This document shows, piece by piece, positions 9,402 through 26,075 of a stretch of DNA of 64,000 bases; within the stretch, counting starts at the first letter, position 1, and each line of letters starts with the position of its first letter. The notes below the pieces were generated by a model. The model saw nothing but the letters and a program-made list of their open reading frames with translations. It ran no database searches and was not told the DNA's origin. Source of the DNA: Halarcobacter sp. (lineage in GTDB: Bacteria > Campylobacterota > Campylobacteria > Campylobacterales > Arcobacteraceae); the NCBI GenBank assembly GCA_030145305.1, contig JAQYVX010000001.1, positions 329,357-393,356 of the forward strand, in the 5' to 3' direction. The position numbers and the translations under genes are program-made.

Positions 9402-10343
9402 TTATTTAATTTCATTGATTCTTAATAAAACATCTTCTGCTATGATTTCTTTCATACAATTATGATGTTTAAGAGGACAAACTCTTTTCATACATGGAGC
9501 ACATTCTAAATTTTTTGTTATGATTGTCTCATTTGGATTATTCCATTGATTTGTTTCAGTAAATTTTGTGGGGCCAAAGATTGCAATAGTTTTTACTTTA
9601 TATGAAGCTGCCACATGCATAGGTCCGGAATCATTTGTTATAAATAAATCTAATCCTGCTATTTTCTCTATTAAGCTAGGGATAGTCGTTTCTCCCGCTA
9701 AATTTTTATAATTATCTATTCTATTTTCTTTTAATTCTTTTTCTATATCATTTGCAATATCTTTTTCACCAGGACCTCCAAAAATAACTATATCATGAGT
9801 TTTTGCCATATTTATAGCTACTTTTGCAAACTCTTTTGGGTACCATCTTTTTGCACTTCCATATGTAGCTCCTGGATTTATTCCAAGTGTTGGTTTAGAA
9901 TATTTAAAAGGTTTAAAATATAGCTTTAAGTTACCTGCTTTATTCTTTAAATTCAAAGAATAATTTATAAAATCATTGTATCTTAGGACTTGATGTATCT
10001 CTTTTTTTTCTAGTCTTTTATAATTAAATTTTTTTTTGGAACTTATAAAAAACATCATAAGTTTTGAAGAAAAACTTCTTCTAAATGAAATAGCTAAATC
10101 AACTTTTCCAACACTTTTTGCAATTTTAAAAAGATTTATATACCTATTTCCTTTTTTCTTTGTATTATCAACTATAACTTTTGAAATATTAGGAATCTTA
10201 CCTAAAGCCTGTGTTGAAACATAAGAGCCTAATAATATTACCTCAGCATTAGGATATTCTTTTATAATATTCTCAATAGCTGGTGTTGTCATAATTGCAT
10301 CGCCCAACCATGTTGGTATTTCTATAAATATTTTTTTAATCAT
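9402..10343 (-). CDS. waaF: ADP-heptose:LPS heptosyltransferase II
   Basis: The GT9 protein of 313 residues has the N-terminal PTWLGDAIMTTPAI typical of WaaF, LGINPGATYGSAKRWY, the FITNDSGPMHVA donor motif, and a Cys-rich C-terminal ECAPCMKRVCPLKHHNCM segment typical of WaaF. It adds the second L,D-heptose to the inner core. The ATG lies inside the end of the preceding gene (8-base overlap), so the two are coupled. Confidence 0.93.
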   Translation of the reverse strand: MIKKIFIEIPTWLGDAIMTTPAIENIIKEYPNAEVILLGSYVSTQALGKIPNISKVIVDNTKKKGNRYINLFKIAKSVGKVDLAISFRRSFSSKLMMFFISSKKKFNYKRLEKKEIHQVLRYNDFINYSLNLKNKAGNLKLYFKPFKYSKPTLGINPGATYGSAKRWYPKEFAKVAINMAKTHDIVIFGGPGEKDIANDIEKELKENRIDNYKNLAGETTIPSLIEKIAGLDLFITNDSGPMHVAASYKVKTIAIFGPTKFTETNQWNNPNETIITKNLECAPCMKRVCPLKHHNCMKEIIAEDVLLRINEIK

Positions 10344-11382
10344 TTATCATCTTTTTATAAGTTTGAAAAGCTGGCATTTTTCGTAATTTTCCATCTCTAT
10401 TATCAACTAATCCATAACCAGGAGCTATTAATTGATGCCAGTAAACTCTTTTTATTTTTTTTGTACCTTTTATAATCTCATGATACTCTATCATGTATTT
10501 TTTATACTCTTCTTCACTTATACATTCGTGTTCACTTGTAGGCGCATATGGAGCTGTATTAGATATAGGCCAATTTACTTCTGTAATATAAATTTCATTT
10601 GAAGCTTTCCACGATAATTTTGTCAATGAATATAATAAATCAACTTTATTTTTTGTATCAAAAACACCATATTGTGTGTTATATGGACTTCCTCTTCTAT
10701 CAACATAAAGTAAACTTGAATGTTTATCATATTTTATATCTTCTAAATTAAATAATGCTCTTGCAGTATAATAGTATTCAAAATCAATAACACTAGGACC
10801 AAGTAATTTTAAATCTTTAAAAAACTCATCTCTTATATTTTGTACCGTTTTATAAAATTTTAAGTATTCACTTACAGAAAAAAAGCCCCATTTTGACCTA
10901 TTAATTGTACTTCCAATTTGATATTCTTCTACAAAACTAGAAAACTTTTCAAAGATAATTTTTATATTTTTTTTTAATAATTCATTATTTTCAATATGTT
11001 CTCTATCTTGCATTATATTTAAAAGAATTTTTATTTCATTATCTTGTTGAATAAATTTTTTTACAAAGTCTATATATTCTTCTATTCTATGCATTTCCCA
11101 AAGAGGCATTCTTATTATTAAATGTTTTACACCTAACTCTTCAACTAAAGCATATTGTTCTTCACCTTTGTCAAGATTTACACCAATACCATATTCAAGT
11201 TTTTCATTTCCTTTAAAAAGTTTCATTAAAACAATTGAAATAGGTAAAACAATAATTGATGTAAAAAAAAGTTTTACATAATCGAATAAATGCTTTTTAC
11301 GCATTGCTTTTTTATATTCTTTGTCTCTTATTACATGAGGTTGGTCTGAGTAATTATCCCATACAAAAGGTTCTTTATTCAA
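10336..11382 (-). CDS. Membrane-anchored glycoside-hydrolase-like protein (TIM barrel, degenerate)
   Basis: I do not recognise a named gene. A single membrane helix (about residues 57-76 counted from an ATG at 11439) is followed by what looks like a clan-A beta/alpha barrel: GIGVNLD, LGVKHLIIRMPLWEM and, near the end, IYITEVNWP, whose Glu fits a retaining nucleophile. At the usual acid/base position (GNE-x-N in relatives) it reads IGSTIN, so that Glu is absent. I prefer a TTG start at 11382 with AAGG upstream, one base past the previous stop; an ATG at 11439 would overlap by 56 bases. It may bind or trim core sugars at the periplasmic face (inference). Confidence 0.6.
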   Translation of the reverse strand: MNKEPFVWDNYSDQPHVIRDKEYKKAMRKKHLFDYVKLFFTSIIVLPISIVLMKLFKGNEKLEYGIGVNLDKGEEQYALVEELGVKHLIIRMPLWEMHRIEEYIDFVKKFIQQDNEIKILLNIMQDREHIENNELLKKNIKIIFEKFSSFVEEYQIGSTINRSKWGFFSVSEYLKFYKTVQNIRDEFFKDLKLLGPSVIDFEYYYTARALFNLEDIKYDKHSSLLYVDRRGSPYNTQYGVFDTKNKVDLLYSLTKLSWKASNEIYITEVNWPISNTAPYAPTSEHECISEEEYKKYMIEYHEIIKGTKKIKRVYWHQLIAPGYGLVDNRDGKLRKMPAFQTYKKMIND

Positions 11383-11383
11383 G

Positions 11384-11998
11384 TTAAAGCCTTGTAAATG
11401 GACGTTTTCCAAGTTTTGCTCTTTGTACATCTTTTTCATACATTCGCATAAACTTTTCCCACTGTCTTGTTATCTTATATTTTGTATAAAGTTTTGAAAG
11501 CTTGTACAATACAAATTTTGCTCCTGTACGTTTTGCACCTAAGCCATCAACTATAATTAGTTTATATTCATTCTCTGCTATTTTAGGGCAAAAAATATTC
11601 GTTAAACTTGTATCTACAAAAAGTATTAAATTTTTTTCTAGATATATTTTTAGTTCATCAATTAATTTTTTTTGTTCATCTAAAGGTATTATTTTATTTG
11701 CAAGGTAATATCTAAAACTTTTACTTGGCATTCCATCATGATCTAATACCCTATCAAATACCAAACCTTTTCCTAAGTTTGTATTTACATATCCATAACA
11801 ATCAGTAAGATATGATAAATCAGTTTTTCTTTTTTTCAAATAATTCATATAATTAAATTCTAATTCATTTTGATTATTATGATTACCTTGGGTATGTAAG
11901 GTTTTAATTACTTTAGTATTATCAATAGGATGAAGATAACAATTCCTTTCTCCACCTTTTGCAATAAGTAAACTATCATCTAAAATTAATTTTGACAA
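11384..11998 (-). CDS. YrbL-family kinase-like protein, paralogue 1
   Basis: This 204-residue protein belongs to the PhoP-regulatory-network YrbL family, which has a protein-kinase-like fold. Visible are the Gly-rich GGERNCY (15-21), Lys32 in KVIK, an Asp129-x4-Asn134 catalytic-loop-like pair (VDTSLTN) and DGLG (151-154) in place of DFG. Two paralogues lie at 14666 and 17100 with identical motif spacing. In this setting it may phosphorylate a core sugar, but no substrate is established for the family as far as I know. It overlaps the upstream P-loop gene by 13 bases. Confidence 0.8.
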   Translation of the reverse strand: MSKLILDDSLLIAKGGERNCYLHPIDNTKVIKTLHTQGNHNNQNELEFNYMNYLKKRKTDLSYLTDCYGYVNTNLGKGLVFDRVLDHDGMPSKSFRYYLANKIIPLDEQKKLIDELKIYLEKNLILFVDTSLTNIFCPKIAENEYKLIIVDGLGAKRTGAKFVLYKLSKLYTKYKITRQWEKFMRMYEKDVQRAKLGKRPFTRL

Positions 11999-12960
11999 AG
12001 TTCTTCCTTCTTTGAAGTCATTACTTCTTTTGCAACATTTGATAAAATATCTTTACAAAGTTCTAAGTCATTTCCTGTATTGATATAGGTATAAATAACA
12101 GAAGGTTTTTCTAAATATATTTTAAAATTTAATTTTCTATATTTTTTAATATCTCTACTTGTTAATTCATCTTTTCTATTTAAAATTATTTTAGCTTTTG
12201 CATCTAAATGAATTATCCAATATGAATGAGGAATAAACTTTAAAAGAGTTTTCCAATTTTCTCTAAGTTTTGTTTTTTTATCTAAAAAAGAGATATTTTC
12301 TAATAAATAATCATTAAAAAACCTATCAATAAAAATCACTCTTTTTCTAAAATTTGAGTTAAATATAAGATAAGGATAATATAAAATCCCAGCAGTTATT
12401 ATCATCAAATAATGAATATCATCATGTTGATCTTTTAAAGGCTTTACCCCAAGTTTTCTTTTTAGTATTATTCTATTAATGGGATATAGAATATTATATA
12501 TAAATGAACGCCTTACTATTTTTTTAAATCTTTTATATAAATACGGCTTCTCTTTTATGTTAAAAGAATTTGTAAGAAGTGTTGTTTTCCCTACTCCATC
12601 AGGCCCAATTACGGGGAAAATTTTCTGCTTTTTGCTTTTTTCTATAACTTTTAAGTATTCAGATTCTTCTTTAGTATTAATTAATGAAGGCTCACAAGTA
12701 TAAATAAAAATTCTTTTTTTATCATTACTAAGTGTATCAAATAAATCTATTTTTAAAAGTTTATATTCATCTCTTAAAATTGTAAAACTCAAATGTGATT
12801 TTGTACATTTTTTAAAGAAAGTCTTTAATAATAAATTAACTATTTCTTCTTTTATAAATATTTTATCTTGATTGTTTTCCAGAATTTCAAATTCAATACT
12901 TTTACTTTTTAAATCTTCTAAAATAGAAGAATAAAAACTCTCAATATTAATATGTTTCAT
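11986..12960 (-). CDS. Thymidylate-kinase-like P-loop protein with N-terminal extension
   Basis: The 324-residue protein has a Walker A GPDGVGKTT (119-127) and a VIFIDRFFNDY segment resembling the DR(Y/F) motif of thymidylate kinases, with an Arg-rich stretch further on (RKDELTSRDIKKYRK). The first 110 residues resemble nothing I can name. At 324 residues it is much longer than a normal Tmk (about 200), and it sits among glycosyltransferases and kinase-like genes, overlapping both neighbours. A nucleotide-synthesis role is therefore unlikely; sugar or lipid phosphorylation is a guess from context. Confidence 0.7.
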   Translation of the reverse strand: MKHINIESFYSSILEDLKSKSIEFEILENNQDKIFIKEEIVNLLLKTFFKKCTKSHLSFTILRDEYKLLKIDLFDTLSNDKKRIFIYTCEPSLINTKEESEYLKVIEKSKKQKIFPVIGPDGVGKTTLLTNSFNIKEKPYLYKRFKKIVRRSFIYNILYPINRIILKRKLGVKPLKDQHDDIHYLMIITAGILYYPYLIFNSNFRKRVIFIDRFFNDYLLENISFLDKKTKLRENWKTLLKFIPHSYWIIHLDAKAKIILNRKDELTSRDIKKYRKLNFKIYLEKPSVIYTYINTGNDLELCKDILSNVAKEVMTSKKEELCQN

Positions 12961-13927
12961 TTAATAACTCTTTTAGACTATTTTCAATTTTTTTATACAA
13001 ATTATCATCATAATTTTCTGGTACACAAAAATTACTTTGTTTCTCTTTTTGACTAATTGTTGCCCATCTTTTAGCACTTGCAAATAAAGAATTTCCAAAA
13101 AAAGAAAGTGTTTTTGTGTTTACTGCACCTGCAAGATGCATAGGTCCAGTTGACGTACTAATAAAGATTTCAAAAGATGCTAATAATTTACAAAAATCTA
13201 CTAAAGATGATTTAGAGTCATAAAGAATTGCACCAAAATCAATATTTTTTTCTATGTACTTTTTAGTTTCTTTATCATCTGGCCCAAAAGTAAATACAAC
13301 TTTTACTTTTTTTATACTTGAAATTGATTTTGCTAGTTTTATATAATCATCAACTCTTAAATTTCCATCACTACTTCCACCAAAACCTGGATGAAAAGCA
13401 ATAAATTTATAGTCATTATCTACTAAATTAGTCTCTTTTTTAAATTTTAATAAAATAGCTTCTATCTCATCTTTTGAAAACTTTAAAAGTGGTTTTTCAT
13501 ATTTTAATTCAGCTTTTGGATAAAAAGCTTTTAACAAATCTAAATTATACTCAGCCTCTGTCCTTTTAACTAAACTTCTTCTCTGATTTATTCTGTAATT
13601 TGAAAAAATCTGCGCTATTTTTGTTGCAGGAGCATATCTTTTTTTTACACCAGCTAATAATAAAGCCAAGGCTAGTTTGGTATCTGTAAAAGCACTAATA
13701 CTTGCATCTATATTTTTCTCTTTTATTCTTTTAACTAAAGTAAATAAATTTTCATCATATAAAATTACCTCATCAATAAATTTCATACTAGAAGCTAATT
13801 CATAATTAACTTTTGAAACTAATGCAAATATTTTTACATTAGGTATTTGTTTCTTTGCAACTTGATAAGTAGGTAAAGTAAGTACAAAATCACCAATTTT
13901 ATCATGTCTTGTAATTAATAGATTCAC
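12947..13927 (-). CDS. GT9 glycosyltransferase (third heptosyltransferase-type enzyme)
   Basis: The 326-residue protein has the GT9 features RHDKIGDFVLTLPTY at the N-terminus, FHPGFGGSSDGN, and STSTGPMHLAGAV near residue 260. It is distinct from waaF (9402) and waaC (26968), so it may add a third heptose or another residue to the inner core. It starts at GTG 13927, sharing one base with the TAG of the upstream kinase gene, and overlaps the next gene by 14 bases. Acceptor and donor are not deducible from sequence. Confidence 0.88.
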   Translation of the reverse strand: MNLLITRHDKIGDFVLTLPTYQVAKKQIPNVKIFALVSKVNYELASSMKFIDEVILYDENLFTLVKRIKEKNIDASISAFTDTKLALALLLAGVKKRYAPATKIAQIFSNYRINQRRSLVKRTEAEYNLDLLKAFYPKAELKYEKPLLKFSKDEIEAILLKFKKETNLVDNDYKFIAFHPGFGGSSDGNLRVDDYIKLAKSISSIKKVKVVFTFGPDDKETKKYIEKNIDFGAILYDSKSSLVDFCKLLASFEIFISTSTGPMHLAGAVNTKTLSFFGNSLFASAKRWATISQKEKQSNFCVPENYDDNLYKKIENSLKELLNETY

Positions 13928-14676
13928 TAATTTCTACCTCTTATTTTACGTTTAAACTCCACAAAATCTTTTAACTTTTTATCAGATTTTTTCAAAATTT
14001 CAATTGCTTTTTTCTCATCAACTTTTGATAAAAAAGCATATCTTTTTGCAATTAAAAGTAAATCATCTTCATCTAACCATAATTTTGCAAAATTATCTAA
14101 GCCTAAAAATAAATCAATACTTTTAAACTCCATTCTATTAATATCTACAATAGAAAAAGTAAAACTTCCATCACTTTTTTTTAAGACAAGGGTATTTCCA
14201 GCTGAGTAATCTTTATGATAAACATTGTTTTGATGAAGATTAAATGTAAAATCAACAAAAGATTCTATAATTTTTATACGCTCGTCTAACTCTTTGTTTC
14301 GTAAAGGTTCTCTAATAGTAAAATCATAATCAAATTTTTCAGATATAAAAAAACTCTCTTTGAATAAAAAAGCTTTATAAAATTCTATATATCCAATTGG
14401 TTTTGGAGTATTTATACCTAATTTTTCTAATCTAATAGCATTTTTATAAGATTTCTTTGCTTTTGAATCTCTAAAATAAGCATAAACTATCTGATTTACT
14501 TTATTAGGGATTTTAAAAGCTTTTACAACTGTTTTAATATTATCAAATTCAATTACTTTTAATTCATTTCTTGCTTTATGTATAGTTTCTGAATTATTTT
14601 CAAAATACTTTTTTATATTTAATAAAAAATCTTTAAATTTTTTTGAATGACTATTTAGTTCATATTTAATATTCAA
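13927..14676 (-). CDS. Lipopolysaccharide kinase (InaA/Kdo-kinase-like)
   Basis: The protein has a complete small-molecule kinase core. An N-lobe Lys (TVVKAFK) is followed by NTPKPIGY, the catalytic loop YHKDYSAGN (His154, Asp156, Asn161) and DIN (Asp178) as the metal-binding motif. This fits the WaaP/InaA/KdkA superfamily that phosphorylates heptose or Kdo in the LPS core. I prefer the TTG at 14676, which has AAGGA 5 bases upstream, over a TTG at 14694. It overlaps the YrbL paralogue 2 gene by about 11 bases, and the third GT9 gene follows with a 1-base overlap. Confidence 0.82.
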   Translation of the reverse strand: MNIKYELNSHSKKFKDFLLNIKKYFENNSETIHKARNELKVIEFDNIKTVVKAFKIPNKVNQIVYAYFRDSKAKKSYKNAIRLEKLGINTPKPIGYIEFYKAFLFKESFFISEKFDYDFTIREPLRNKELDERIKIIESFVDFTFNLHQNNVYHKDYSAGNTLVLKKSDGSFTFSIVDINRMEFKSIDLFLGLDNFAKLWLDEDDLLLIAKRYAFLSKVDEKKAIEILKKSDKKLKDFVEFKRKIRGRN

Positions 14677-15283
14677 TATTATCCTTATTTTCAAGTTTGA
14701 TATTTAAACTTCTTTCGTATTTATAATTTTTTAAAAAAACATCCCATTGTTTTTTTATTTTGTATCTAGCAAAAAACTTCAACTTCATATATAGCCAAAA
14801 TTTAATTCCTGGTCTTCTTGCTCCAAGTCCATCAAATATTATCAATTTATATTCATTCTTTGAAATCTTTTGACAAAAAATATTTGATAAACTAGCATCT
14901 ACAAAAAGTATGTCATTTTTAAACAAATATGCTTTTAAATCATTTATCAATTTCATTGAATAATCATCTTCCAATAAATTATGTTTTATATAAAAGCTCA
15001 TTGTTCTTATTTCACTATTATCATAATTTTTTATTCTTTGAACTACTAAGCCCTCTCCAAAGTTTGTATTAACAAAGCCATAACATTTTGGAATATAAGA
15101 AAAATCAACATCTTGCTTTTCTAAATACTTGATATATGTATATTCCAAAATATTTTGATTATTATGTTTATCTAGTTTTTTTACAATTTTTATAACTTTT
15201 TTTTCATCACGAGGGTAGATATAACAATTACGCTCGCCTCCTGTACCTAAAAAATCATTATCATTTAAAACTATATAACTCAT
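14666..15283 (-). CDS. YrbL-family kinase-like protein, paralogue 2
   Basis: With the start at ATG 15283 (AAAGAGAAG just upstream) the protein is 205 residues and its motifs fall at the same positions as in paralogue 1: GGERNCY (15-21), Lys32, Asp129-x4-Asn134 (VDASLSN) and DGLG (151-154). An ATG at 15313 would add ten residues without family support. It heads the minus-strand run of kinase and transferase genes that ends at waaF or beyond. A role in core phosphorylation is inferred from neighbours. Confidence 0.8.
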   Translation of the reverse strand: MSYIVLNDNDFLGTGGERNCYIYPRDEKKVIKIVKKLDKHNNQNILEYTYIKYLEKQDVDFSYIPKCYGFVNTNFGEGLVVQRIKNYDNSEIRTMSFYIKHNLLEDDYSMKLINDLKAYLFKNDILFVDASLSNIFCQKISKNEYKLIIFDGLGARRPGIKFWLYMKLKFFARYKIKKQWDVFLKNYKYERSLNIKLENKDNIEY

Positions 15284-15313
15284 TAACTTCTCTTTATTTA
15301 AAAAATAGACCAC

Positions 15314-15336
15314 AAAATAGCTATTTTTTTATTATA
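15314..15336 (-). promoter_or_regulatory. Candidate promoter with 14-bp palindrome for the YrbL2-led operon
   Basis: The minus strand reads TATAAT at 15336-15331. Overlapping the expected transcription start is a perfect 14-bp palindrome, AAAATAGCTATTTT (15314-15327). Its position suits an operator, but no regulator is identified and AT-rich DNA makes short palindromes common. Confidence 0.35.
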
Positions 15337-15364
15337 GTATTAAACATACTAGCTAAAACAACTA

Positions 15365-15370
15365 TATAAT
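15365..15370 (+). promoter_or_regulatory. Candidate -10 box for the EptC-like gene
   Basis: TATAAT lies in the 177-base divergent region between the YrbL2 gene and the EptC-like gene, about 90 bases before the latter's ATG. The long leader leaves room for another start site, so this is tentative. The downstream ribosome binding site is AAGGA, about 7 bases before ATG 15461. Confidence 0.3.
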
Positions 15371-15460
15371 ATGGTTAAATAAAAATCCATTATTATTAAC
15401 ATTTATTAATTTTTAATCACTATTTAATTAATATACAAATAATAAAAAACAAGGATTTTA

Positions 15461-17086
15461 ATGCAAAAAATTGTACAAAACTTACTCTTAGCTTTAATAG
15501 TAACACTATTATTTATAACAGTGGAACAAACTTATAGAACTTATAACGATATCTTAACTTTCAATTTAAATTTGAAAAGCTTTTTAGAACAGTTATTATT
15601 AAATTTCTTAATTCTATCAATTATTAGCCGTCGGGCAATACTAACAATTTATTCCATACTAGCACTTCTAGTATGGTTTCAACTTTTACATTTTGGTTAT
15701 TTTGGTACCTGGATTTTTCCTCTTGAGTATTATTTATTTTTTACAAAATTTCAAGAGACCTTTGATACTTTTAAAACTGTTTTAGATATTTCAATTGTAC
15801 CTACAATTTCAATTATTTTTTTATTAATTATTCTTTTTAAAGTAATAAACAAAAATGACAATAAAAGACTTAAACTTCCTTATTTATCTTTAGTTTTAAT
15901 ATTATTTATTATATTTATTCCAGCAAGAGTTTATATTAAAGATTCAAAAAAAGGTCATAGACCTAATGTTGAACACTATCCAATAAAAAATACAGTTAAT
16001 AATCTTGGTTATTTATTAGGAAATATTTTACCTAAAAAAGCAAATGGGCACAGCGGTTTAGAACAAACAATAATAAATACTCCAAAGCTAAATCTTAATA
16101 ATCCTGATATAAATGTTGTAGTAATAATGGGAGAATCATTACATAGAAGCTATATGTCTTTATATGATTATAAAATAAAAACAACTCCATATTTAGATAC
16201 TCTAAAAAATGACCAAAATTTTATTTATAAAAAAGGTATTTCTTCAGGTGTTGTAACTGATGTTGCAATTCCTTCTTTTTTTAATATGATTAAAAGACCA
16301 GATGGAGTGCCACAAATTATTACATCAAATACTTGTCTTTTTAAAATGGCTAAAAAGAATGGTTTTACAACTCACTATTTTAGTGCGCAAGCGCAAGGTC
16401 AATTATCACAACTAAAAAGTTACTTATGTCCTTCATCAATTGACCAATATACAGATGGCACAACTGTTACAAAGGATATTGATAGACCTGCATTAGATGA
16501 GTTTTTAATTGATACTATTGATAAAGTTGACTTTGAAAAACCTAATTTTTTAGTTTTACATCAAAGAGGTTCACATACTCCTTTTAAAGAAGATTACCCA
16601 AAAGAGTTTGAAAAGTTCACAAAAAAAACAAGTGAAGACTCTAGTATCTCACAAAATACTTTAGAATACCAAAACTCTGTTTACTATACAGATTATGTTA
16701 TTTCTAAAATTATTGAGAAAATAAAATCAAAAACAAATAAACCTACATATTTTATATTTACATCTGATCATGCCACAAACATAGGAGATAGCAATAGAAA
16801 TGGACATGGAAGATTAGATTATGATTCTATTTATCAAGTTCCTTTTTTCATATATGGCATAAATAATCCAAAAGATTTATCTAATAAATTTTCTGAATTT
16901 GAATATATTTCTCATTATCAAATATCAAATGTAATAAGTCATTTATTAGGTTACCAAGAAGTAAGTAAACAATTTAATCAAAAAGAAGATTATTATGTAT
17001 GTGATTCAGATATATCTGGACTTGCAGGTATTTTAAAATTATCATTTGATGAAAACAATAATCAAATTCCAAAACTTATAGAGTAA
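15461..17086 (+). CDS. Phosphoethanolamine transferase, EptA/EptC type
   Basis: The 541-residue inner-membrane protein has about five N-terminal membrane helices and a periplasmic sulfatase-fold domain. Metal and nucleophile motifs are present: MGESLHRSYMSLYDY (Glu225), the nucleophile Thr266 in SGVVTDVAIPSF, and SDHATNIGDSNRNGHGR. It should move phosphoethanolamine from phosphatidylethanolamine to lipid A or core, leaving diacylglycerol. It is transcribed alone on the plus strand inside a minus-strand LPS locus that also carries dgkA, which would rescue the diacylglycerol. The Campylobacter EptC also modifies flagellar rod protein, so the target is open. Confidence 0.88.
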   Translation: MQKIVQNLLLALIVTLLFITVEQTYRTYNDILTFNLNLKSFLEQLLLNFLILSIISRRAILTIYSILALLVWFQLLHFGYFGTWIFPLEYYLFFTKFQETFDTFKTVLDISIVPTISIIFLLIILFKVINKNDNKRLKLPYLSLVLILFIIFIPARVYIKDSKKGHRPNVEHYPIKNTVNNLGYLLGNILPKKANGHSGLEQTIINTPKLNLNNPDINVVVIMGESLHRSYMSLYDYKIKTTPYLDTLKNDQNFIYKKGISSGVVTDVAIPSFFNMIKRPDGVPQIITSNTCLFKMAKKNGFTTHYFSAQAQGQLSQLKSYLCPSSIDQYTDGTTVTKDIDRPALDEFLIDTIDKVDFEKPNFLVLHQRGSHTPFKEDYPKEFEKFTKKTSEDSSISQNTLEYQNSVYYTDYVISKIIEKIKSKTNKPTYFIFTSDHATNIGDSNRNGHGRLDYDSIYQVPFFIYGINNPKDLSNKFSEFEYISHYQISNVISHLLGYQEVSKQFNQKEDYYVCDSDISGLAGILKLSFDENNNQIPKLIE

Positions 17087-17101
17087 AACTCTATAAGTTT
17101 T
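17071..17101. terminator. Bidirectional terminator between the EptC-like and YrbL3 genes
   Basis: A perfect 14-bp stem (17071-17084 with 17088-17101) has a 3-base loop. The TAA of the plus-strand gene lies across the loop, and the TAA of the minus-strand gene lies at 17102-17100. The plus strand continues with a T-rich run, and the minus-strand arm ends in TTTT. The stem therefore serves both converging genes. Confidence 0.8.
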
Positions 17102-17666
17102 ATTTTAAATATTTATTTATAAACTTATCCCATCTTCTAGTTATTCTTCTTCTTGCAAAGTATGGAATTTTATTTGGCAGTGTAAAATGAGAAACATCCC
17201 CTAATCCATCTATTAAAACTAAATCAAAATCTGTTTCACTATTTTTTCTAAGTAGAATATTTTTAGGCATCATTCCATAATTAAAAATTATACAATTATC
17301 TAAAAAATATTGTTTATATATAGCTAGTTCTTTTTCGTAAGCCTTTGAACCATTTTCCTTTAAATAATAAGCAAAGCTTTTTGAGACACTTCCATCGTAA
17401 TCTCTTATTAATTCTATTATAAAACCATCACCTTTATTTGTTTTAGTCTCACCAAAAAATTCAGGTAGATGTTTCCAGCTTTTAACACCTCTTTTTATTA
17501 ACTCTTTATAATACTTAATCTCTTTGTCTGATTGTTTACTTTTTTTCCTTTTATTATTTTCAAAGGTAATTTTTATTGTTTTACTATTATCTTCAGGATG
17601 ATGGTAGCAAGCTCTTTCATTTCCCTTAGCTATAAAATCTTCATCTTTTAAAATTATCACTTGCAC
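17100..17666 (-). CDS. YrbL-family kinase-like protein, paralogue 3
   Basis: This 188-residue member has GNERACY (15-21), Lys32 and DGLG (153-156). In the catalytic-loop region it reads FNYGMMPKN, so the Asp seen five residues before the Asn in paralogues 1 and 2 is replaced by Gly131. That divergence suggests a different or lost activity. The start is GTG 17666 with AGGAG upstream; a second GTG six bases on has better spacing but worse alignment with the paralogues. It follows the GT4 gene by 5 bases as the last gene of the 19508-17100 unit. Confidence 0.75.
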   Translation of the reverse strand: MQVIILKDEDFIAKGNERACYHHPEDNSKTIKITFENNKRKKSKQSDKEIKYYKELIKRGVKSWKHLPEFFGETKTNKGDGFIIELIRDYDGSVSKSFAYYLKENGSKAYEKELAIYKQYFLDNCIIFNYGMMPKNILLRKNSETDFDLVLIDGLGDVSHFTLPNKIPYFARRRITRRWDKFINKYLK

Positions 17667-17671
17667 AACTC

Positions 17672-18775
17672 CTAAATTTCTTTTAATACTTTTATTAACT
17701 TTTCAAACTGGATATCATTATTAAATGATTCATTTGCTTTTTTTTCACCATTTTTGGCTAATTTTTCTTTTAAACTATCATCAGAATAAAGTTCTTCTAT
17801 TTTCAAAGCTAAATCATCTGCATTTTGAGACTCAAAAAGTAATCCCGTTTCTTTATCATCTATTATCTCTAATACTCCACCTGCATTTGCACCAAGGACA
17901 GCTGTGCCCATTTGCATAGCTTCAATAGTAACAAGCCCAAAAGTTTCATTTCTTGATGCCATAATAATGCAATCACAAGCTTGCATAAACTTATGTGGTT
18001 CATTCGTAAAACCTAAAAATTTTATCTCTTCTTCCAAACTATATGATTTTATCTTATCTTTCAATTCAATCAAATATTCTTCTTTCATAGCATGACCTAC
18101 AAAAAAAGCCTTAATATTTAAATTTTTTTCTTTCAAGATTTTCATTGCCTCAATTAAAAGATACTGCCCTTTAAATTCATTTATTCTACCAATTATTCCA
18201 ACTATAAAGCTCTCTTTTGAAAATATTGAGTCTTTAAAAAATTCTATCTCATTTTCTGAATACTTAGAAGAGCATGCAGCCCCTAAATAAACTTGTTTTA
18301 TTTTAGGTCTGATATCATTTGGTATAAATTTTATTAATTGTTTCTCTAATTCTTTTGTAACTGCAATTATTAAATCAATATTTTTATATAAAAACTTATG
18401 ATAAAAATCATCTTTAAATCTGGTCATAGTCATATGTCTTGATTGTATAACTTTAGGTTTTCTTTTTGAAATTTTTTTTGCTAAAACAACTATGGGTAAA
18501 TCTTTTGTCCAATGTATATGAACTATGTCAATATTATTAGAATCAATAATTTTAGCTAGTTTCATTGCATTTATTAAAGAAAAACTACTCTTTCTTTTTA
18601 GAGTAAAATATCTATTTTCACCATCTTTATAATATTTTTCTAATTTACTATTTTTAGCAATAAGAGAAACTATATTAAAGTTTTTTGATAAGTGTTTTGC
18701 ACACTTACTCATATAAAGTTCTAAACCACCTAAATCAGGAGATAAACAAACTTCAAGAATATTTTTATTTATCAT
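17672..18775 (-). CDS. GT4 family glycosyltransferase
   Basis: The 367-residue GT-B enzyme has an N-terminal GGLELYMSKCAKHL acceptor-side loop, IVGIIGRINEFKGQYLLIEA, and the E-x7-E motif in RNETFGLVTIEAMQMG. It is a retaining transferase that likely adds a hexose or heptose to the LPS core on the cytoplasmic face. It overlaps the GT2 gene upstream by 11 bases and precedes YrbL3 by 5 bases. Donor and acceptor cannot be read from sequence. Confidence 0.88.
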   Translation of the reverse strand: MINKNILEVCLSPDLGGLELYMSKCAKHLSKNFNIVSLIAKNSKLEKYYKDGENRYFTLKRKSSFSLINAMKLAKIIDSNNIDIVHIHWTKDLPIVVLAKKISKRKPKVIQSRHMTMTRFKDDFYHKFLYKNIDLIIAVTKELEKQLIKFIPNDIRPKIKQVYLGAACSSKYSENEIEFFKDSIFSKESFIVGIIGRINEFKGQYLLIEAMKILKEKNLNIKAFFVGHAMKEEYLIELKDKIKSYSLEEEIKFLGFTNEPHKFMQACDCIIMASRNETFGLVTIEAMQMGTAVLGANAGGVLEIIDDKETGLLFESQNADDLALKIEELYSDDSLKEKLAKNGEKKANESFNNDIQFEKLIKVLKEI

Positions 18776-19508
18776 CTTTTTGCATTTCCAACATCAAAGC
18801 ATATTTCATATATGAACTAAATGCAGAGATAACAGCAACATTCCAGCCATGAATACCATGAAAGGCTCCACCTTTTAAAACTAAGGCTTTAAATAAGGCT
18901 CCAACGCCATGAACAAAGGGGTCAAAAACACTTGCTCTTTTACCAGATTCATAAGAGATTTGTGCACCTCTTTTTATAAATTTTTCAGTCACTCTTATCA
19001 TATGAATATAATCATCATAAGAATAATGAAGCATATCAGCTTTTAAATCACATACATTTTTAGCTTCAACTTTTGCATGACCTTTTTGTTTTGAATAAGC
19101 ACATTTTTTTCTATTATATAGTCTTGTAACTCTATCTGGATACCAAAGCTTAATAAGGTTATTCCCTACATATGTCTTTCTTGCAAAAGAAAATCCATCA
19201 TAGTTTGTATTATCTAAGTCTAGTTTTTTAATTGCTTTTATTGCATTTGTATCAAGTCTTTCATCAGCATCAATGCTTAAAATCCAATCATTTTTTGCAT
19301 ATGGCTCACCAAATGCTTTTTGCGGACCATCCCCTAAATATTCTTGTTTTATAACTTTTGCACCTAAACTTTCTGCTATTTCACATGTTCTGTCAGAACT
19401 TAATGAATCTACTACTAAAATCTCGTCGCATACAGTCTGTACTGACTTAATAACAGCTTCAATATTTTTTTCTTCATTTAGTGTAATTATATTTGCGGTA
19501 ATTTTCAA
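18765..19508 (-). CDS. GT2 glycosyltransferase, WaaE/LgtF type
   Basis: The 247-residue GT-A enzyme starts MKITANIITLNEEKNI and has VVDSLSSDRT and the DxD-type SIDADERLD metal site. These match the WaaE/KdtX/LgtF group, which adds beta-1,4-glucose to heptose I of the inner core. The start is TTG 19508. It is the first gene of a three-gene minus-strand unit (GT2, GT4, YrbL3) and is divergent from the GT4 gene at 19598. Confidence 0.88.
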   Translation of the reverse strand: MKITANIITLNEEKNIEAVIKSVQTVCDEILVVDSLSSDRTCEIAESLGAKVIKQEYLGDGPQKAFGEPYAKNDWILSIDADERLDTNAIKAIKKLDLDNTNYDGFSFARKTYVGNNLIKLWYPDRVTRLYNRKKCAYSKQKGHAKVEAKNVCDLKADMLHYSYDDYIHMIRVTEKFIKRGAQISYESGKRASVFDPFVHGVGALFKALVLKGGAFHGIHGWNVAVISAFSSYMKYALMLEMQKDDK

Positions 19509-19597
19509 AATGTAAAGACCTTATCTTAATATAGTAAATATTATATAATAAGTTTAATTTAAATAGGATATAATCCACATTTTATAAGGGTTTTAAA

Positions 19598-20668
19598 ATG
19601 AATTTGAAAACTGCAATAATTTGCTTATCAAGAGTAAATGGGGGAATGGAATTAGCCTCAGTAAAGTTAGCTAGGATATTAAGCAATGATATTAATATTG
19701 AATTTATTGCTAGAGATAAAAGTTATATATTAGATAAAAAAGAACATTTTGAAAACTATAATATAAAAATACATGAAGTAAACTTTTCTAGTAATTTAAG
19801 CTTCTCACTGATATTTCAAATAAGAGAAATATTGATTAACAATAAAATTAGAAATATCATCTTTTTAGGTGCTTCTGAAATGAAATCTCTCTATTTTGCA
19901 ACCCTTGGTCTTGATATTAATTTTATTATTAGACAAGGTTCAAAAAAAACAACTTCAAAAAAAGATTTTTTTCATAAACTATTTTATTCAAATGTAAACT
20001 ATTTTATAGGAAATTGTGAATATATGAGACAAAATATTATAGATATTTTGCCAATACCTAAAAAAGCAAGAGTAAAAAGAATATATTCCTCTTTAAAACT
20101 TGAAAGAAATATAAACTTTAAACCTTTAGATAAAAAAATAGACTTAGTACATGTGGGAAGAATTCATCCAGGAAAAGGTCAAAAAGATGCTATTGAAGCT
20201 TGCCAAATTTTATATGAAAATAATTTTGATTTTAAAATGACTTTCTTAGGAGATTTCCAAAATAAATTGTATTATGATGAAATTCAAAAAGATTTAGAAA
20301 AGCTTGCATATAAAGATAAAATAGAGTTTGTTGGGTATACCTCAAAAGTAAAAGAATACCTACAAAAATCTGATATATTTATTTTTCCAAGTCTTGGAGA
20401 AGGCATGAGTAATGCCATTATTGAATCACTTGGATTTGGATTAATCCCAATTATTTATAATGATACTTCCTCTCCTGAATTTAAAGATTTGGGATTTCAT
20501 ATTCATTTAACAAAAGAAAATGATATAAAGAACTTAAAAGAAATCCTTCTTGATCTGGCAAAAAATTTTAAAGAAGAAAAAGAAAAAGCTCTATTTAATC
20601 ATGAAAAAGCTTTAGAAATTTTTGCTCCTAAAAGAGAAAAGAATGAATATTTAGAACTATTGAAATAA
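19598..20668 (+). CDS. GT4 family glycosyltransferase
   Basis: The 356-residue GT-B enzyme has VNGGMELASVKLARIL at the N-terminus, the donor-side LVHVGRIHPGKGQKDAIEA, and E-x7-E in LGEGMSNAIIESLGFG. It forms a two-gene plus-strand unit with the next GT4 gene, 8 bases apart, and is divergent from the GT2 gene over an 89-base gap holding the promoters. It probably builds outer core or O-chain. Confidence 0.88.
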   Translation: MNLKTAIICLSRVNGGMELASVKLARILSNDINIEFIARDKSYILDKKEHFENYNIKIHEVNFSSNLSFSLIFQIREILINNKIRNIIFLGASEMKSLYFATLGLDINFIIRQGSKKTTSKKDFFHKLFYSNVNYFIGNCEYMRQNIIDILPIPKKARVKRIYSSLKLERNINFKPLDKKIDLVHVGRIHPGKGQKDAIEACQILYENNFDFKMTFLGDFQNKLYYDEIQKDLEKLAYKDKIEFVGYTSKVKEYLQKSDIFIFPSLGEGMSNAIIESLGFGLIPIIYNDTSSPEFKDLGFHIHLTKENDIKNLKEILLDLAKNFKEEKEKALFNHEKALEIFAPKREKNEYLELLK

Positions 20669-20676
20669 GGTTATTT

Positions 20677-21744
20677 ATGGAAAGTATAGTATTAATAATA
20701 GATTCTCTTATAACAGGAGGAGCAGAAACAACGAATATTAGATTAGCAGATATGTTTCTAGAAGCTGGATTTGATGTGCATATAATATCTATTAAAGATA
20801 ATAAAGAACTTCACATTAGCAAAAATATAAAAGTAGATACTCTAGCCTATAAAAAAAGAAAAAAACTTTTTAATAATAAGTATTATTCAAAATTATTAGA
20901 AAATAAACTCAATCAAATAAAAAATAAAAAATTAATTCTAGGTAGCTTAGGATTAAGTCATAAATTAATGAATATCATAGATAAAAAATTTAATTTTTAT
21001 TATGTTTTACATGGAACAACTACAAAAGCAAAGCTCGATACAAAAAAAGGACTTAGTAGACTTATTAAAAAAAATGAATTGGAAAATTTATACAATAATA
21101 AAAATATTATATGCGTTTCAAAAGGTGTAGAGAAAGATATATTAAGCTTAAATATAAAACCTAAAACCATACAAACAATTTATAATCCATTTAATTTTAC
21201 TTATATAAAAGAACTTTCAGAAAAAAATATTAATATTCAATTGCCAGAAAAATACATTGTTCACGTAGGAAGATTTGCAAAAGTAAAAAAGCATGACATC
21301 TTAATACAAGCTTTTTCTTTATTAAAAGACAAAACATTAAAGCTTGTATTAGTAGGCGATGGAGAAGAAAGAAAAAATATAGAAGAATTGATTAAAAAAT
21401 TAGGATTAGAAAAGAAAATTATATTATTAGGATTTTTAGAAAATCCTTATCCTATTATCAAAAAAGCAAAATTATTAGTATTATCATCAGAAAATGAAGG
21501 CTTTGGGAATGTATTAATAGAAGCAATGATTTTAAATACAAATGTAGTAAGTACAAATGCCCCAACAGGACCTAGTGAAATCCTTATTGATTCATTATCA
21601 GAAAATTTAGCAGAAGTAAATAATTATAAAGATTTACAGATGAAAATAAATCATGCATTATCAAATATGAATATAATAAATTACCCTATATCTCAGTATA
21701 AAGAAGAAGTTATTCAAAAAGAGTATTTTAATCTTTTTGAATAA
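20677..21744 (+). CDS. GT4 family glycosyltransferase
   Basis: The 355-residue enzyme has SLITGGAETTNIRLAD, YIVHVGRFAKVKKHDILIQA and E-x7-E in ENEGFGNVLIEAMIL. The sequence resembles the GalNAc/Gal transferases of the PglA/WbnH kind, but that subclass is a guess. Its 3' end overlaps the converging O-antigen ligase gene by 17 bases. Confidence 0.88.
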   Translation: MESIVLIIDSLITGGAETTNIRLADMFLEAGFDVHIISIKDNKELHISKNIKVDTLAYKKRKKLFNNKYYSKLLENKLNQIKNKKLILGSLGLSHKLMNIIDKKFNFYYVLHGTTTKAKLDTKKGLSRLIKKNELENLYNNKNIICVSKGVEKDILSLNIKPKTIQTIYNPFNFTYIKELSEKNINIQLPEKYIVHVGRFAKVKKHDILIQAFSLLKDKTLKLVLVGDGEERKNIEELIKKLGLEKKIILLGFLENPYPIIKKAKLLVLSSENEGFGNVLIEAMILNTNVVSTNAPTGPSEILIDSLSENLAEVNNYKDLQMKINHALSNMNIINYPISQYKEEVIQKEYFNLFE

Positions 21745-22936
21745 GTTTCTTTTTTGATTCTATAATTATTAATGTAAAAAATACAAATGACATCAAAAAT
21801 AAAATATTTATAGGTTTTTTATCCATTAAACTATTAAAAAGTCCATTATAAAAAATTGTACAATATAAACTAAATGCTAAATATTGATATTGTTTATTAA
21901 TTTTTAATTGATAAATTAACATGCACACTGATGATATAAGTAAAATATATCCTAATAATCCATATCTTAAAAGTATTTCAAAATGTTGATTATGTAAACT
22001 TCCAAAAGATGCATAAGTATTTTCTTTTTCTGCAATTTTTCTATATTCAACTCTTGTATCTCCAGCTCCTACACCAAATAAGGGATTATCTTTTAATATT
22101 AATGCCGAAGTTCGATATAAATAACTTCTAATTCCCCAACTACCCTCATATTTATTTTCCAAGAATACACTTTTTAATTCTTTATAACCTGTAGTAAATT
22201 TTGAAGAAAAATTAACTAAAGAATAGATAGAGATTGTAAATCCTAAAAACATAATTAGTATAATTTTTTTTGTAAAAAAACTTCTAAAAAAGAAAAGTAA
22301 AAATGTAAAAACTGTCAAAATAATTGAAAGATGAGCTGATCTTCCATTATTAATAAGAAAAGAAAAAAGACATAAAATAAATACTAAAATAAATGATATT
22401 TTTTCTAACTTATTATTAGAATAATAACTATGAATATAAGAAAATAGAACTCCCATAGCTAACATAGGTGTCACAATTGCATATTCTAAATGACCTCTAG
22501 GGTCACTGGGAATAGACTCTTTAATAGTATAAAACCCAAAATAAATACCTAAACTATATATTGCATAAATAGCAAAACCATAGGTAAATAACTTCAAACC
22601 TTTTTTTGCATCTTCCATATCTAGGGAGAACAGAAGTACTGGTATAAAGATTAATGATTCTCTATATATCTTTTGAGCCCATAAACCATGTTCCATATTT
22701 GAAGTCCATAGCAAACTTAAATATGTGTATGCAATAAAAACGAATAAAACTAAAATAGGCTTAAATTTCATAATCTCAGAAAATCTTATTTTTAATAAGT
22801 TTTTATCTTTTTTTAAAACTAAAAAAAACAACAATATTACTATTGAAAATGCTGCATAGTGAGAATTAAATAAATACAAAGGGGTAATTAAAAACCAAAA
22901 GTATAAAATCTGTTTATATAGAAAATTATTAAGCAT
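21728..22936 (-). CDS. waaL: O-antigen ligase (WaaL family)
   Basis: The 402-residue polytopic membrane protein has roughly ten to eleven hydrophobic segments. The Wzy_C/WaaL hallmarks are visible: a periplasmic loop with NPLFGVGAGDTR, and SLHNQHFEILLRYGLLGY with the conserved His. WaaL joins O-polysaccharide to lipid A-core in the periplasm. Wzy polymerases share this fold; the WaaL call rests on the neighbouring core genes. It follows the LtaS-like gene by 4 bases. Confidence 0.75.
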   Translation of the reverse strand: MLNNFLYKQILYFWFLITPLYLFNSHYAAFSIVILLFFLVLKKDKNLLKIRFSEIMKFKPILVLFVFIAYTYLSLLWTSNMEHGLWAQKIYRESLIFIPVLLFSLDMEDAKKGLKLFTYGFAIYAIYSLGIYFGFYTIKESIPSDPRGHLEYAIVTPMLAMGVLFSYIHSYYSNNKLEKISFILVFILCLFSFLINNGRSAHLSIILTVFTFLLFFFRSFFTKKIILIMFLGFTISIYSLVNFSSKFTTGYKELKSVFLENKYEGSWGIRSYLYRTSALILKDNPLFGVGAGDTRVEYRKIAEKENTYASFGSLHNQHFEILLRYGLLGYILLISSVCMLIYQLKINKQYQYLAFSLYCTIFYNGLFNSLMDKKPINILFLMSFVFFTLIIIESKKKLIQKD

Positions 22937-22940
22937 AAAA

Positions 22941-24938
22941 TTAATCCTTGTAATGATTTATTAAAAATTGTGTTACTGCTAAACTTGATTTATAATAGTT
23001 TATTAAGTTGTTATTTGTTTCATTTTTCAACTTTGATAATTTAAAAATATTTTCTTTTTGATTTACAATCATAGAACCATTAAATCCATAATGTTTAGCT
23101 TCATAATCAAATAGATTATATCCAATTGATATATAATTTTCATCCTTTAAAGTAAGATTATAAAGAGTAGGAAATATATCTTTATGTGAACCTGCAATAC
23201 TTGTATCAATTTTTAATTTATTTTTTAATTCTTTAGGTAAATAGAAATATAAAGGAATATTCTTTGAGTTAAGTAATTGATTATCATCATACTTCATAAT
23301 TCCATCAATCGTATTATTATCTGCTGTAACTACTACTATAGTATTTTTTGCAAATTCACTTTTTTTAAATTTATCTAAGAATATTCCTACTTGATCAATC
23401 GCATAAGCATAGGACTTAAATCTTTGCTCTGCAAGTTCAAAATCTCCCGTTATATGTTCTTTTATTTCATCTGTATAGATTAAAGGTTTAGATTTATAAT
23501 CAGAAGGTATATTATAAGGAGGATGATTATTTGTACTTAAGGCAAAAATAAATTGCTTTTTATTTTTTGAATCTTCTAATTTATCCAAAATGTGAGAGTA
23601 TAGATGCTCATCAAATATACCCCAAGGATGAAAGTATTCGCTTTCTTCTTTAGTTTTATTCTTGATATTATTAAATATATTAATTTTACCTTGAACATTA
23701 TCATATCCTTGATACTTAATAAACTTACCTAAATTTCTCCAAGATAAATCTCCTCCATAAATAAATGATGTTTCATAATCATGTTTTTTATATAAAAAAC
23801 CAGCAGTATAATCAAAAGATGTTTGTTTATAAATAGATTGAGAGAAAGCAAAGGCATTTGGACGTTTTGGAATATTTAGTAGTAAAGCTTCCAGGCTTGA
23901 TATTGTGCCATCCCCTGAAGAAATAAAGTTTGTAAAAAGGATATCTTCATCAAAATGTTTTTTCAGATTTCCTAAAATATTATAGGACTCTGAATTATAT
24001 TTAGTTATAGGCATTCCAAAACTTTCAACCATTATTAAAACTATATTATAATCATTGTCATCTATTTTTTTAGTTTTATATGTGATATTATTCAATAAAT
24101 TCTTACTATCAATATTATCAGTTTGTTTAAAGTCTTTGAATGCTTTTTCTATATTATTTTTATAACCAGTTTCTTTAATTAAATCATATTCTCTTTTTAA
24201 GTATTTTTTTCTTATGCCATACGCATTTGTAAATGCTCTAAAACCATTTTGGGGTATTTTATTAATAAATTCATTTTCAGATACATTTGGAATCATTTTA
24301 CCTAAAGGATACATACCTAAAGTACCTCTAATTGCTAGAAAATTTAAAACGAATATTATTGTAAAAATTAAAAAAGATATTTTTAATCCAAAAAAAGATT
24401 TAAGATATTTATTTTCCTTATTTAGAATAAAAGAAATGACTTTAAATAAAAAAAATGAATAAATAAAAAATAGTGATAAGATAAAAATTACATTGTAATT
24501 TTGCCAAAAAGTTATAAGAAGAGCAGAAGTATCATCATCAAAAAGTCCAAAAAATAGAATATTTATATGATCTTTAAAATATGAATAAAATCCAAAATCG
24601 GCACCTGCTAATAAACTCACCGCTAAATAGCAAAAGAAAAGATAATAAATTAAAAATTTAGAAAAAAAGTTTAAAAAAGACTCCTTTTTTAAATAATATA
24701 AAATTATAAGCATAATTGTTGGGATAACTTGAATATAACCTACTACAGTAAGATCTATTCTTAATCCTAAAAAAAAAGCTTTGAAAATATCTAGGTAAAA
24801 AATATTAAACTTATCTAGGGGTGAATAATAGAAAAAGAATATAGTTCTAAATAAAGACATAATTATCAAAAGAAAAATATGTGCAAAAATTAATTTTTTG
24901 AAAATATTAAGGGTATGTGACATAATTGTTTGATTCAC
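22941..24938 (-). CDS. LtaS/MdoB-like sulfatase-fold transferase
   Basis: The 665-residue protein has five or six N-terminal membrane helices and a large periplasmic sulfatase-fold domain. Visible are MVESFG (Glu305), the nucleophile Thr345 in GDGTISSLEALLLN, and VVVTADNNT, where the usual Asp-His metal pair is Asp540-Asn541. Relatives transfer phosphoglycerol or phosphoethanolamine from phospholipid to glycans. The gene lies between waaL and a kinase-like gene, close to dgkA, which fits a diacylglycerol-producing transferase acting on LPS. The start is GTG 24938. Substrate is unknown and the Asn substitution makes metal use uncertain. Confidence 0.8.
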   Translation of the reverse strand: MNQTIMSHTLNIFKKLIFAHIFLLIIMSLFRTIFFFYYSPLDKFNIFYLDIFKAFFLGLRIDLTVVGYIQVIPTIMLIILYYLKKESFLNFFSKFLIYYLFFCYLAVSLLAGADFGFYSYFKDHINILFFGLFDDDTSALLITFWQNYNVIFILSLFFIYSFFLFKVISFILNKENKYLKSFFGLKISFLIFTIIFVLNFLAIRGTLGMYPLGKMIPNVSENEFINKIPQNGFRAFTNAYGIRKKYLKREYDLIKETGYKNNIEKAFKDFKQTDNIDSKNLLNNITYKTKKIDDNDYNIVLIMVESFGMPITKYNSESYNILGNLKKHFDEDILFTNFISSGDGTISSLEALLLNIPKRPNAFAFSQSIYKQTSFDYTAGFLYKKHDYETSFIYGGDLSWRNLGKFIKYQGYDNVQGKINIFNNIKNKTKEESEYFHPWGIFDEHLYSHILDKLEDSKNKKQFIFALSTNNHPPYNIPSDYKSKPLIYTDEIKEHITGDFELAEQRFKSYAYAIDQVGIFLDKFKKSEFAKNTIVVVTADNNTIDGIMKYDDNQLLNSKNIPLYFYLPKELKNKLKIDTSIAGSHKDIFPTLYNLTLKDENYISIGYNLFDYEAKHYGFNGSMIVNQKENIFKLSKLKNETNNNLINYYKSSLAVTQFLINHYKD

Positions 24939-24942
24939 AAGC

Positions 24943-25728
24943 TTATCCTTTTAAGTTTTTTAATATAAGAAAAAGTTTGAAAAAACCTTGACCATCTCTT
25001 CCTATTACTTTTTTAAAAAAACGATTTTGACTAAGTGTTATAAAAAAAGAAATTTTTTGTGCCAAACTTTTAAGTTTACGTCTAAAGTCACTATTTTGAG
25101 GTACTAATTCAGTATATTTTTTTATTACGTAATTATAATCTATTTCAAAAGAAGCTCTAGTTTTAGTTAAAGATAATAAAAATAAAATAAAATCCCTAAA
25201 TTGTAAAACTTCTAAATCAATATTATCATCAAAACTATCTTCAAAATCTATAGCTGTAATTTTTCCATCTTTATATAGAAAATTTCTAGCTTGAGGACCA
25301 CCATGATATTCATGATTATTATGAATCAAGGCTAGGTTTTCTAACATTAAATCAATGTAATAATACATTTTCTCTTTACTTATATCTCTTTTTCTAATAT
25401 AAGAATTAACCATTTTCCCAGAATCTTCTAAAACAAAAAAACTTTCATTTTTTATTTTTATTGTGGGTGTATTAACTCCTTTTTGCATTAGTCTTTCAAT
25501 TTTATTTGTTTCAAATTTCAAGCTATCTTTTGCTGTTTTATTCTCAACGGGTAATAATACCTCTATAGAAAAACGCTTATATAATAACTTATGTATAAAA
25601 TTCGATTTTGTTGCTCTTGCCTTTTTTAGCCAATACTTTTTATTTTCAAATTCAAAAGAGAATATCTCTTCTTTTTTTTGCTCATTTAAATTATAAACTA
25701 AATCTTTAAACTCTTTTTCTATGCCCAT
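24943..25728 (-). CDS. Kinase-like protein of the LPS kinase/BUD32 superfamily
   Basis: The protein is about 261 residues from ATG 25728, inside the dgkA stop region; a TTG at 25770 would overlap dgkA by 52 bases. It has N-lobe lysines (KKYWLKKAR), GVNTPTIKI, then HNNHEYHGGPQARN (His142) and AIDFED (Asp161). At the catalytic Asp position it has Gly (HGG rather than HGD), a variation also known from BUD32-like proteins. It is the fifth protein-kinase-like gene of the locus. Core or lipid A phosphorylation is inferred only. Confidence 0.72.
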   Translation of the reverse strand: MGIEKEFKDLVYNLNEQKKEEIFSFEFENKKYWLKKARATKSNFIHKLLYKRFSIEVLLPVENKTAKDSLKFETNKIERLMQKGVNTPTIKIKNESFFVLEDSGKMVNSYIRKRDISKEKMYYYIDLMLENLALIHNNHEYHGGPQARNFLYKDGKITAIDFEDSFDDNIDLEVLQFRDFILFLLSLTKTRASFEIDYNYVIKKYTELVPQNSDFRRKLKSLAQKISFFITLSQNRFFKKVIGRDGQGFFKLFLILKNLKG

Positions 25729-26075
25729 AGTAAAACTACAATCCAAATAATTACATGTAATCCTATACAAAACATTACAGCTGTTGAGCCAATGTCTTTT
25801 GCATTTTTTGCCAAAGGATGAATTTCTTTTGTTACTAAATCAACAACATTTTCAATAGCTGAGTTTATTAACTCAACTATTAAGACTAAAATTCCTGTAA
25901 TAAAAAGTGCTATCTTATAAATAAGAGAAACATCAATAAAAATTATTCCTAGTACAATGAAAACAGCAGCAAAAAGTTCGAGTTTAAAAGAACTTTCTGT
26001 TTTAAATGCGTGTTTTAAGCCATCAAGTGCATATTTTGTATTTTTAAAAAGGTGATATTTTGGTTTATTATTCAT
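25719..26075 (-). CDS. dgkA: Diacylglycerol kinase
   Basis: The 118-residue protein has three membrane helices and the DgkA signature ELINSAIENVVDLV followed by KNAKDIGSTAV. It phosphorylates diacylglycerol to phosphatidate in the inner membrane. In this locus the EptC-like and LtaS-like transferases should both release diacylglycerol, which explains the gene's presence. It starts one base after the acyltransferase gene, and the next gene begins inside its end. Confidence 0.96.
   Translation of the reverse strand: MNNKPKYHLFKNTKYALDGLKHAFKTESSFKLELFAAVFIVLGIIFIDVSLIYKIALFITGILVLIVELINSAIENVVDLVTKEIHPLAKNAKDIGSTAVMFCIGLHVIIWIVVLLWA

Follow-up and report, generated by a model that had tools for sequence, protein, structure and literature searches.

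The window analysed here, a stretch of 64,000 nucleotides from Halarcobacter sp. (assembly GCA_030145305.1, contig JAQYVX010000001.1, positions 329,357 to 393,356 of the forward strand), comes from a low-GC genome of 3.03 Mb and contains a lipooligosaccharide (LOS) core locus with three genes of the YrbL family (PF10707), referred to as YrbL1, YrbL2 and YrbL3. The best explanation for these genes and their kinase-like neighbours is a module that modifies or phosphorylates the LOS inner core, a reading to which a probability of about 50% is given. The assignment to the pathway is strong, whereas the chemistry and the sugar are what we infer. A role of YrbL in the core or in LOS is very probable; for phosphotransfer by YrbL1 and YrbL2 to a core sugar or a precursor the odds are roughly even, and heptose in particular as the substrate is a guess that we regard as somewhat doubtful.

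Placement of YrbL genes in relatives

Matches to PF10707 were found in 30 of 397 genomes of the class, over the cut-off in 28. Among 104 Arcobacteraceae genomes 30 have YrbL, usually in two or three copies, and 58 have KdoK, the Kdo/WaaP-family kinase of the locus. Of the 71 Arcobacteraceae YrbL matches, 63 are on the same contig as KdoK and every one of these is within 15 kb of it. The remaining eight either lie on a different contig from KdoK (G381, G415, G416) or belong to a genome in which no KdoK was detected (G431). Genomes with YrbL are nested in those with KdoK, which is present in 29/30 of the former and in 29/74 of the rest (Fisher p ~1e-8, uncorrected for relatedness). Random placement in relatives, the outcome against which an earlier note on this sequence had set its claim of sugar phosphorylation during core assembly, is rejected in Arcobacteraceae, and participation in core assembly is well supported because the placement is non-random. 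The core part of that claim stands; the phosphorylation part is plausible only. The further idea in the note that two YrbL genes act on different heptoses is speculation. One relative (G410, C1:472005-472301) has a decayed extra YrbL match with five in-frame stops about 13 kb from its cassette copies.

Gene order of the locus

The YrbL trio is confined to 6.3 kb of the LOS-core locus and a profile search of the 3.03 Mb genome found no further PF10707 gene. Seven minus-strand genes running from 9402 to 15313 abut or overlap one another: YrbL2, KdoK, GT9, the P-loop gene, YrbL1, a TIM-barrel/PgaB-like gene and WaaF. The interleaving with core genes described in the earlier note was thus borne out, and all six open reading frames that it had named as phosphotransfer-like were found at their positions. 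Beyond YrbL2 there is an EptA-like gene, then YrbL3 with GT4 and GT2, an O-antigen-ligase-like gene and a second sulfatase-fold protein. Further on, the same locus contains a Bud32-like gene (Bud32L) and DgkA-, LpxL- and WaaC-like genes, with sugar-nucleotide genes at the locus edge. The names GT4, GT2, ligase, DgkA, LpxL, WaaC and TIM barrel were given by sequence inspection, without a profile match. The features are as follows.

9402..10343, minus strand: WaaF-type heptosyltransferase II (TIGR02195, 162 bits against a cut-off of 134.6)
10336..11439, minus strand: TIM-barrel/PgaB-like protein with one predicted transmembrane helix (57-75) and no Pfam family (sequence inspection)
11384..11998, minus strand: YrbL1 (PF10707, 150 bits against a cut-off of 31.5)
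11986..12960, minus strand: P-loop NTPase/nucleotide-kinase-like protein (Walker A motif GPDGVGKTT)
12947..13927, minus strand: GT9 heptosyltransferase-family glycosyltransferase (profile search)
13927..14694, minus strand: KdoK, Kdo/WaaP-family kinase (PF06293, 24.2 bits against a cut-off of 21.3)
14666..15313, minus strand: YrbL2 (PF10707, 155 bits against a cut-off of 31.5)
15461..17086, plus strand: EptA-like phosphoethanolamine transferase, sulfatase fold (profile search)
17100..17666, minus strand: YrbL3 (PF10707, 193 bits against a cut-off of 31.5)
17672..18775, minus strand: GT4 glycosyltransferase, paired with YrbL3 (sequence inspection)
18765..19508, minus strand: GT2 (KdtX/WaaE-like) glycosyltransferase (sequence inspection)
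24943..25770, minus strand: Bud32L, Bud32-like kinase fold with the motif HGGPQARN, adjoining DgkA (sub-cut-off profile match)
25719..26075, minus strand: DgkA-like diacylglycerol kinase (sequence inspection)

A recurrent order, KdoK–GT9–slot–TIM-barrel-like membrane protein–WaaF, was seen in a survey of 22 loci having both GT9 and the TIM-barrel-like gene, a few of which are the same genome fetched twice. In some loci the slot is empty. In others it is filled by the P-loop gene with YrbL either beside it or fused to it, by a single YrbL, by a pair of YrbLs, or by a YrbL and then a second one fused to the TIM-barrel protein. One locus (L073) is an exception, with WaaF and an unidentified gene at this point. 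The catalytic Asp is kept in every slot YrbL. YrbL3 has a place of its own, beside GT4-GT2 in most relatives. The single-pass TIM-barrel/PgaB-like protein has a conserved YITEVNWP motif, and nearly all relatives have it in their cassette; the published drawings of A. butzleri LOS clusters include a pgaB gene (PMC6477937). The DgkA-like gene overlaps the Bud32-like gene and shares the locus with a phosphoethanolamine transferase, and its product could recycle diacylglycerol, a by-product of that transferase.

Catalytic residues of the YrbL paralogues

The profile scores listed above confirm the three YrbL-family genes. YrbL1 and YrbL2 are 50% identical and YrbL3 is ~34% identical to each. None of the three reaches the cut-off of the NCBIfam equivalog for enterobacterial YrbL (PRK10345; 121-146 bits against 227), and as judged by these scores they are family members below an orthologue-level match. 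Motif positions in YrbL1 and YrbL2 are identical, as had been noted before: GGERNCY at 15-21, Asp129, Asn134 and DGLG at 151-154, with YrbL2 counted from an internal ATG. The kinase residue set of YrbL1 is complete, comprising K32 (beta3), E47 (alphaC), the catalytic D129, N134 and the DFG-type D151, and YrbL2 has the equivalents. The alignment of YrbL1/2-type proteins shows the same five positions conserved, with Asp replacing Glu47 in a few.

The catalytic-loop Asp is absent from YrbL3, where Gly stands at its position, five residues before the Asn, again in agreement with the earlier observation. The YrbL3 clade (n=15, support 100/99) has the loop FNYGMMPKN in all aligned rows but one (L070, FNYGMMQGN). 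Such strict conservation of an Asp-less loop argues for function and not for decay. The residue aligned to the catalytic Asp is Ser in E. coli YrbL (SLKPQN) and Glu in a Pseudoalteromonas YrbL. A single Asp-less clade of YrbL3 and E. coli YrbL is unsupported, the tree requiring three changes and having long branches. A recent tandem duplication as the origin of YrbL1 and YrbL2 was also rejected, because each groups with other species in a well-supported clade of its own.

Structure prediction, which the earlier note had proposed as a check on the kinase-like proteins, gave a YrbL3 model with a predicted local distance difference test (pLDDT) score of 89.4 that matched 305 Protein Data Bank (PDB) chains at E<=0.001. 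The top matches were protein kinases, with NleH2 first and OspG among them, and a protein-kinase-like fold of YrbL3 is predicted. The P-loop protein fared worse, its model being poor at a pLDDT of 59. No transmembrane segment was found in YrbL by hydropathy. The only relatives found in searches of plasmids were those of E. coli, Salmonella and Pseudoalteromonas. A near-invariant RPFTRL tail (window 11384-11410) ends the YrbL1 orthologues, including fused forms and those at loci with a different next gene.

The P-loop partner and its fusions

The P-loop protein (11986) matches no curated family in Pfam or NCBIfam. The earlier note had called it thymidylate-kinase-like; the Walker A motif is there, but membership of the thymidylate kinase family is rejected. 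The best PF02223 match is in a relative (15.3 bits, E 0.016, below the cut-off of 27), the window protein itself has no PF02223 match, and the only plausible fold hints from its model are nucleotide kinases (thymidylate, UMP/CMP) at low confidence. The P-loop and YrbL domains were modelled apart because the joint alignment of a fusion with separate rows was misaligned.

Full-strength P-loop matches occur in 12/104 Arcobacteraceae genomes and all 12 have YrbL, either fused to the P-loop protein or within ~35 bp. A genome-wide scan query gave 12 loci. The same holds for the good matches across the class: those of a different family (G009, G191, G360), which are more distant, also have YrbL next to them or fused to them. 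The P-loop protein is an obligate partner of YrbL. Fusions of 516 aa in one group of the P-loop tree (G207, G256, G273, G424) are separate from fusions of 645-651 aa elsewhere on it (G191, G360), and because of this separation the simplest reading would be two independent origins, although the starred tree branches force only one change. Arcobacter sp. CECT 8985 (L065) carries one natural example of such a fusion. Fusion to a different partner, the TIM-barrel protein, is seen in three relatives (G106, G237, G410), with YrbL preceding the transmembrane helix in the two examined. In a Sulfurimonas metagenome-assembled genome YrbL1 is followed by two tandem P-loop paralogues (L069:6615-8499). Some longer P-loop relatives (L042:8332-9654, L046:9643-11580) have an extra N-terminal region with a GDYDF motif and a nucleotidyltransferase-like look, which is lost in the window form.

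KdoK and the Bud32-like protein

The InaA/Kdo-kinase-like protein reported earlier at 13927 is confirmed as a PF06293 member. It is the sole PF06293 gene in the genome; profile searches of the genome found neither WaaY nor a second Kdo/WaaP-family gene. Its HKDxSAGN and DIN motifs are intact and both HxDxSxGN and D-x-N are kept in 19/19 sequences, and it falls short of the NCBIfam equivalogs KdkA and WaaP (24.8 and 17.8 bits against cut-offs of 142 and 170). Bud32L resembles Bud32 below curated cut-offs only (E 2.6e-9; 36.8 bits against 125). The likeness described before therefore holds and membership of Bud32 does not: HGGxQxRN is found in 5/5 Bud32L sequences, its last Gly standing where Asp is expected (HGDxxxxN), a loss that the earlier note had missed. 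Since the catalytic Asp is missing throughout the YrbL3 and Bud32L clades, the proposal that all six genes phosphorylate core sugars does not extend to these two.

YrbL and known systems

In E. coli YrbL is strongly PhoP-dependent and listed as of unknown function (PMC5775216, PMC11842939). It matches the same Pfam family over its full length, has 29% identity to YrbL3, lacks the catalytic Asp as YrbL3 does and is expected to have the same fold. It differs in being a single PhoP-regulated gene between npr and mtgA, whereas the window has three genes in a LOS locus, of which two have the Asp and one is partnered by a P-loop protein. The earlier note saw YrbL as a stray gene, which suits E. coli and not Arcobacteraceae. 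YrbL-PhoP genes had already been drawn in the waaC-waaF LOS clusters of A. butzleri and A. thereius (PMC6477937 Fig. 2). The passages of that paper on these clusters give no function, partner, fusion, motif split or slot.

WaaP, WaaY and KdkA (PF06293, PF06176) are likewise kinase-like fold enzymes of lipopolysaccharide (LPS) core loci beside heptosyltransferases, and the window KdoK belongs to PF06293; YrbL, however, is in another Pfam family and the host genome is without WaaY. The small bacterial kinases NleH and OspG, among the closest solved folds to YrbL3, are secreted effectors, whereas YrbL is encoded among biosynthetic genes. That LPS-core loci contain kinases is already known. The YrbL set with its obligate, more than once fused P-loop partner, interchangeable slot and conserved Asp-less branch was not found in the literature searched. 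No study of Arcobacter core-phosphate structure was recognisable by title in the literature search.

Selection of E. coli with the cationic peptide TAT-RasGAP317-326 gave four resistant strains with envZ mutations, three of which had one more mutated gene each: basS, the LPS core gene rfaY, or yrbL (V149L) (PMC9241736). A second selection gave yrbL E42G (PMC11842939). In the alignment E42 lies one turn ahead of the alphaC Glu, where the Arcobacter proteins mostly have Gln; V149 precedes the DFG-type Asp by three residues. Both changes map near active-site elements of the kinase fold, and the E. coli selections fit the module.

Discussion

In the proposed module YrbL1, YrbL2 and KdoK would be small ATP-dependent phosphotransferases. 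On the cytoplasmic side they would modify core sugars that are bound to lipid, or the precursors of these, while the heptosyltransferases GT9 and WaaF build the core, and the phosphates so added would determine how negatively charged it is. The P-loop protein might add a second step coupled to that of YrbL1, either another phosphotransfer or one involving a nucleotide. YrbL3 and Bud32L, having no catalytic Asp, may be non-catalytic partners or kinases of altered mechanism.

Several results weigh against this explanation. YrbL is absent from 74/104 Arcobacteraceae genomes and so is accessory, one orthologue of YrbL1 (L066) is found away from the locus, and outside Arcobacteraceae some YrbL genes are near LOS or surface-glycan genes and others away from them. 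The catalytic Asp is missing from YrbL3 and E. coli YrbL, and the P-loop model is poor. The yrbL mutations found with peptide resistance were accompanied by envZ mutations (PMC9241736, PMC11842939), and E42G alone gave a limited increase in resistance (PMC11842939).

The Asp-less proteins YrbL3, E. coli YrbL and Bud32L, together with nearest solved folds that are protein kinases, minimal effector kinases such as NleH and OspG included, would also suit a regulatory role, in which the YrbL proteins, as protein kinases or pseudokinases, govern enzymes of LOS assembly (the P-loop partner, GT9 or the TIM-barrel protein) and do not act on sugars; the two different fusion partners are also what a regulatory domain might have. 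Given that the catalytic set is complete in YrbL1 and YrbL2, that a core locus in which a Kdo/WaaP-family kinase is accompanied by three to four genes of kinase fold has the look of enzymes working in parallel, and that YrbL can replace the P-loop protein in the slot, which is unexpected for a dedicated regulator, this explanation is considered unlikely. It is very unlikely that YrbL1 and the P-loop protein instead produce or recover a small precursor (a free sugar or nucleotide, in phosphorylated or nucleotide-activated form) for the glycosyltransferases of the locus and leave the finished core unmodified. The weak likeness of the P-loop protein to nucleotide kinases, the N-terminal GDYDF sequence of its long relatives and the sugar-nucleotide genes at the locus edge are in keeping with such a role, but the cassette is linked to WaaF, GT9 and KdoK and not to the variable sugar-nucleotide genes, and three YrbL paralogues would be redundant. 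Gene gain and loss in LOS loci, the patchy distribution of YrbL (30/104 genomes) and the degraded G410 copy might suggest hitch-hiking, with YrbL having no part in LOS and being present, as a selfish gene or by chance, in a surface locus that recombines fast. This is scarcely credible given that the gene order is fixed, that the genes overlap, that the P-loop protein is always paired with YrbL, that YrbL is fused in two different ways and that the motifs are invariant within clades.

Its fixed place in LOS-core cassettes and its fusion to two partners give the orphan YrbL family a concrete pathway, and the conserved Asp-less loop of YrbL3 could serve to test whether a kinase fold can carry out unusual chemistry. 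In well-studied bacteria, the stability of the outer membrane and its sensitivity to cationic peptides depend on core phosphates. A bolder possibility, which we think distinctly unlikely as a whole, is that YrbL is an LPS/LOS-core modifying family in which the Asp branch, alongside the P-loop kinase or in fusion with it, would be a two-step transferase while the Asp-less branch (YrbL3 and E. coli YrbL) would use an altered active site for a different core transfer, E. coli YrbL acting in the surface charge and cationic-peptide response. If this were true, the long-orphan PhoP-regulated YrbL of E. coli would gain a function in that response.

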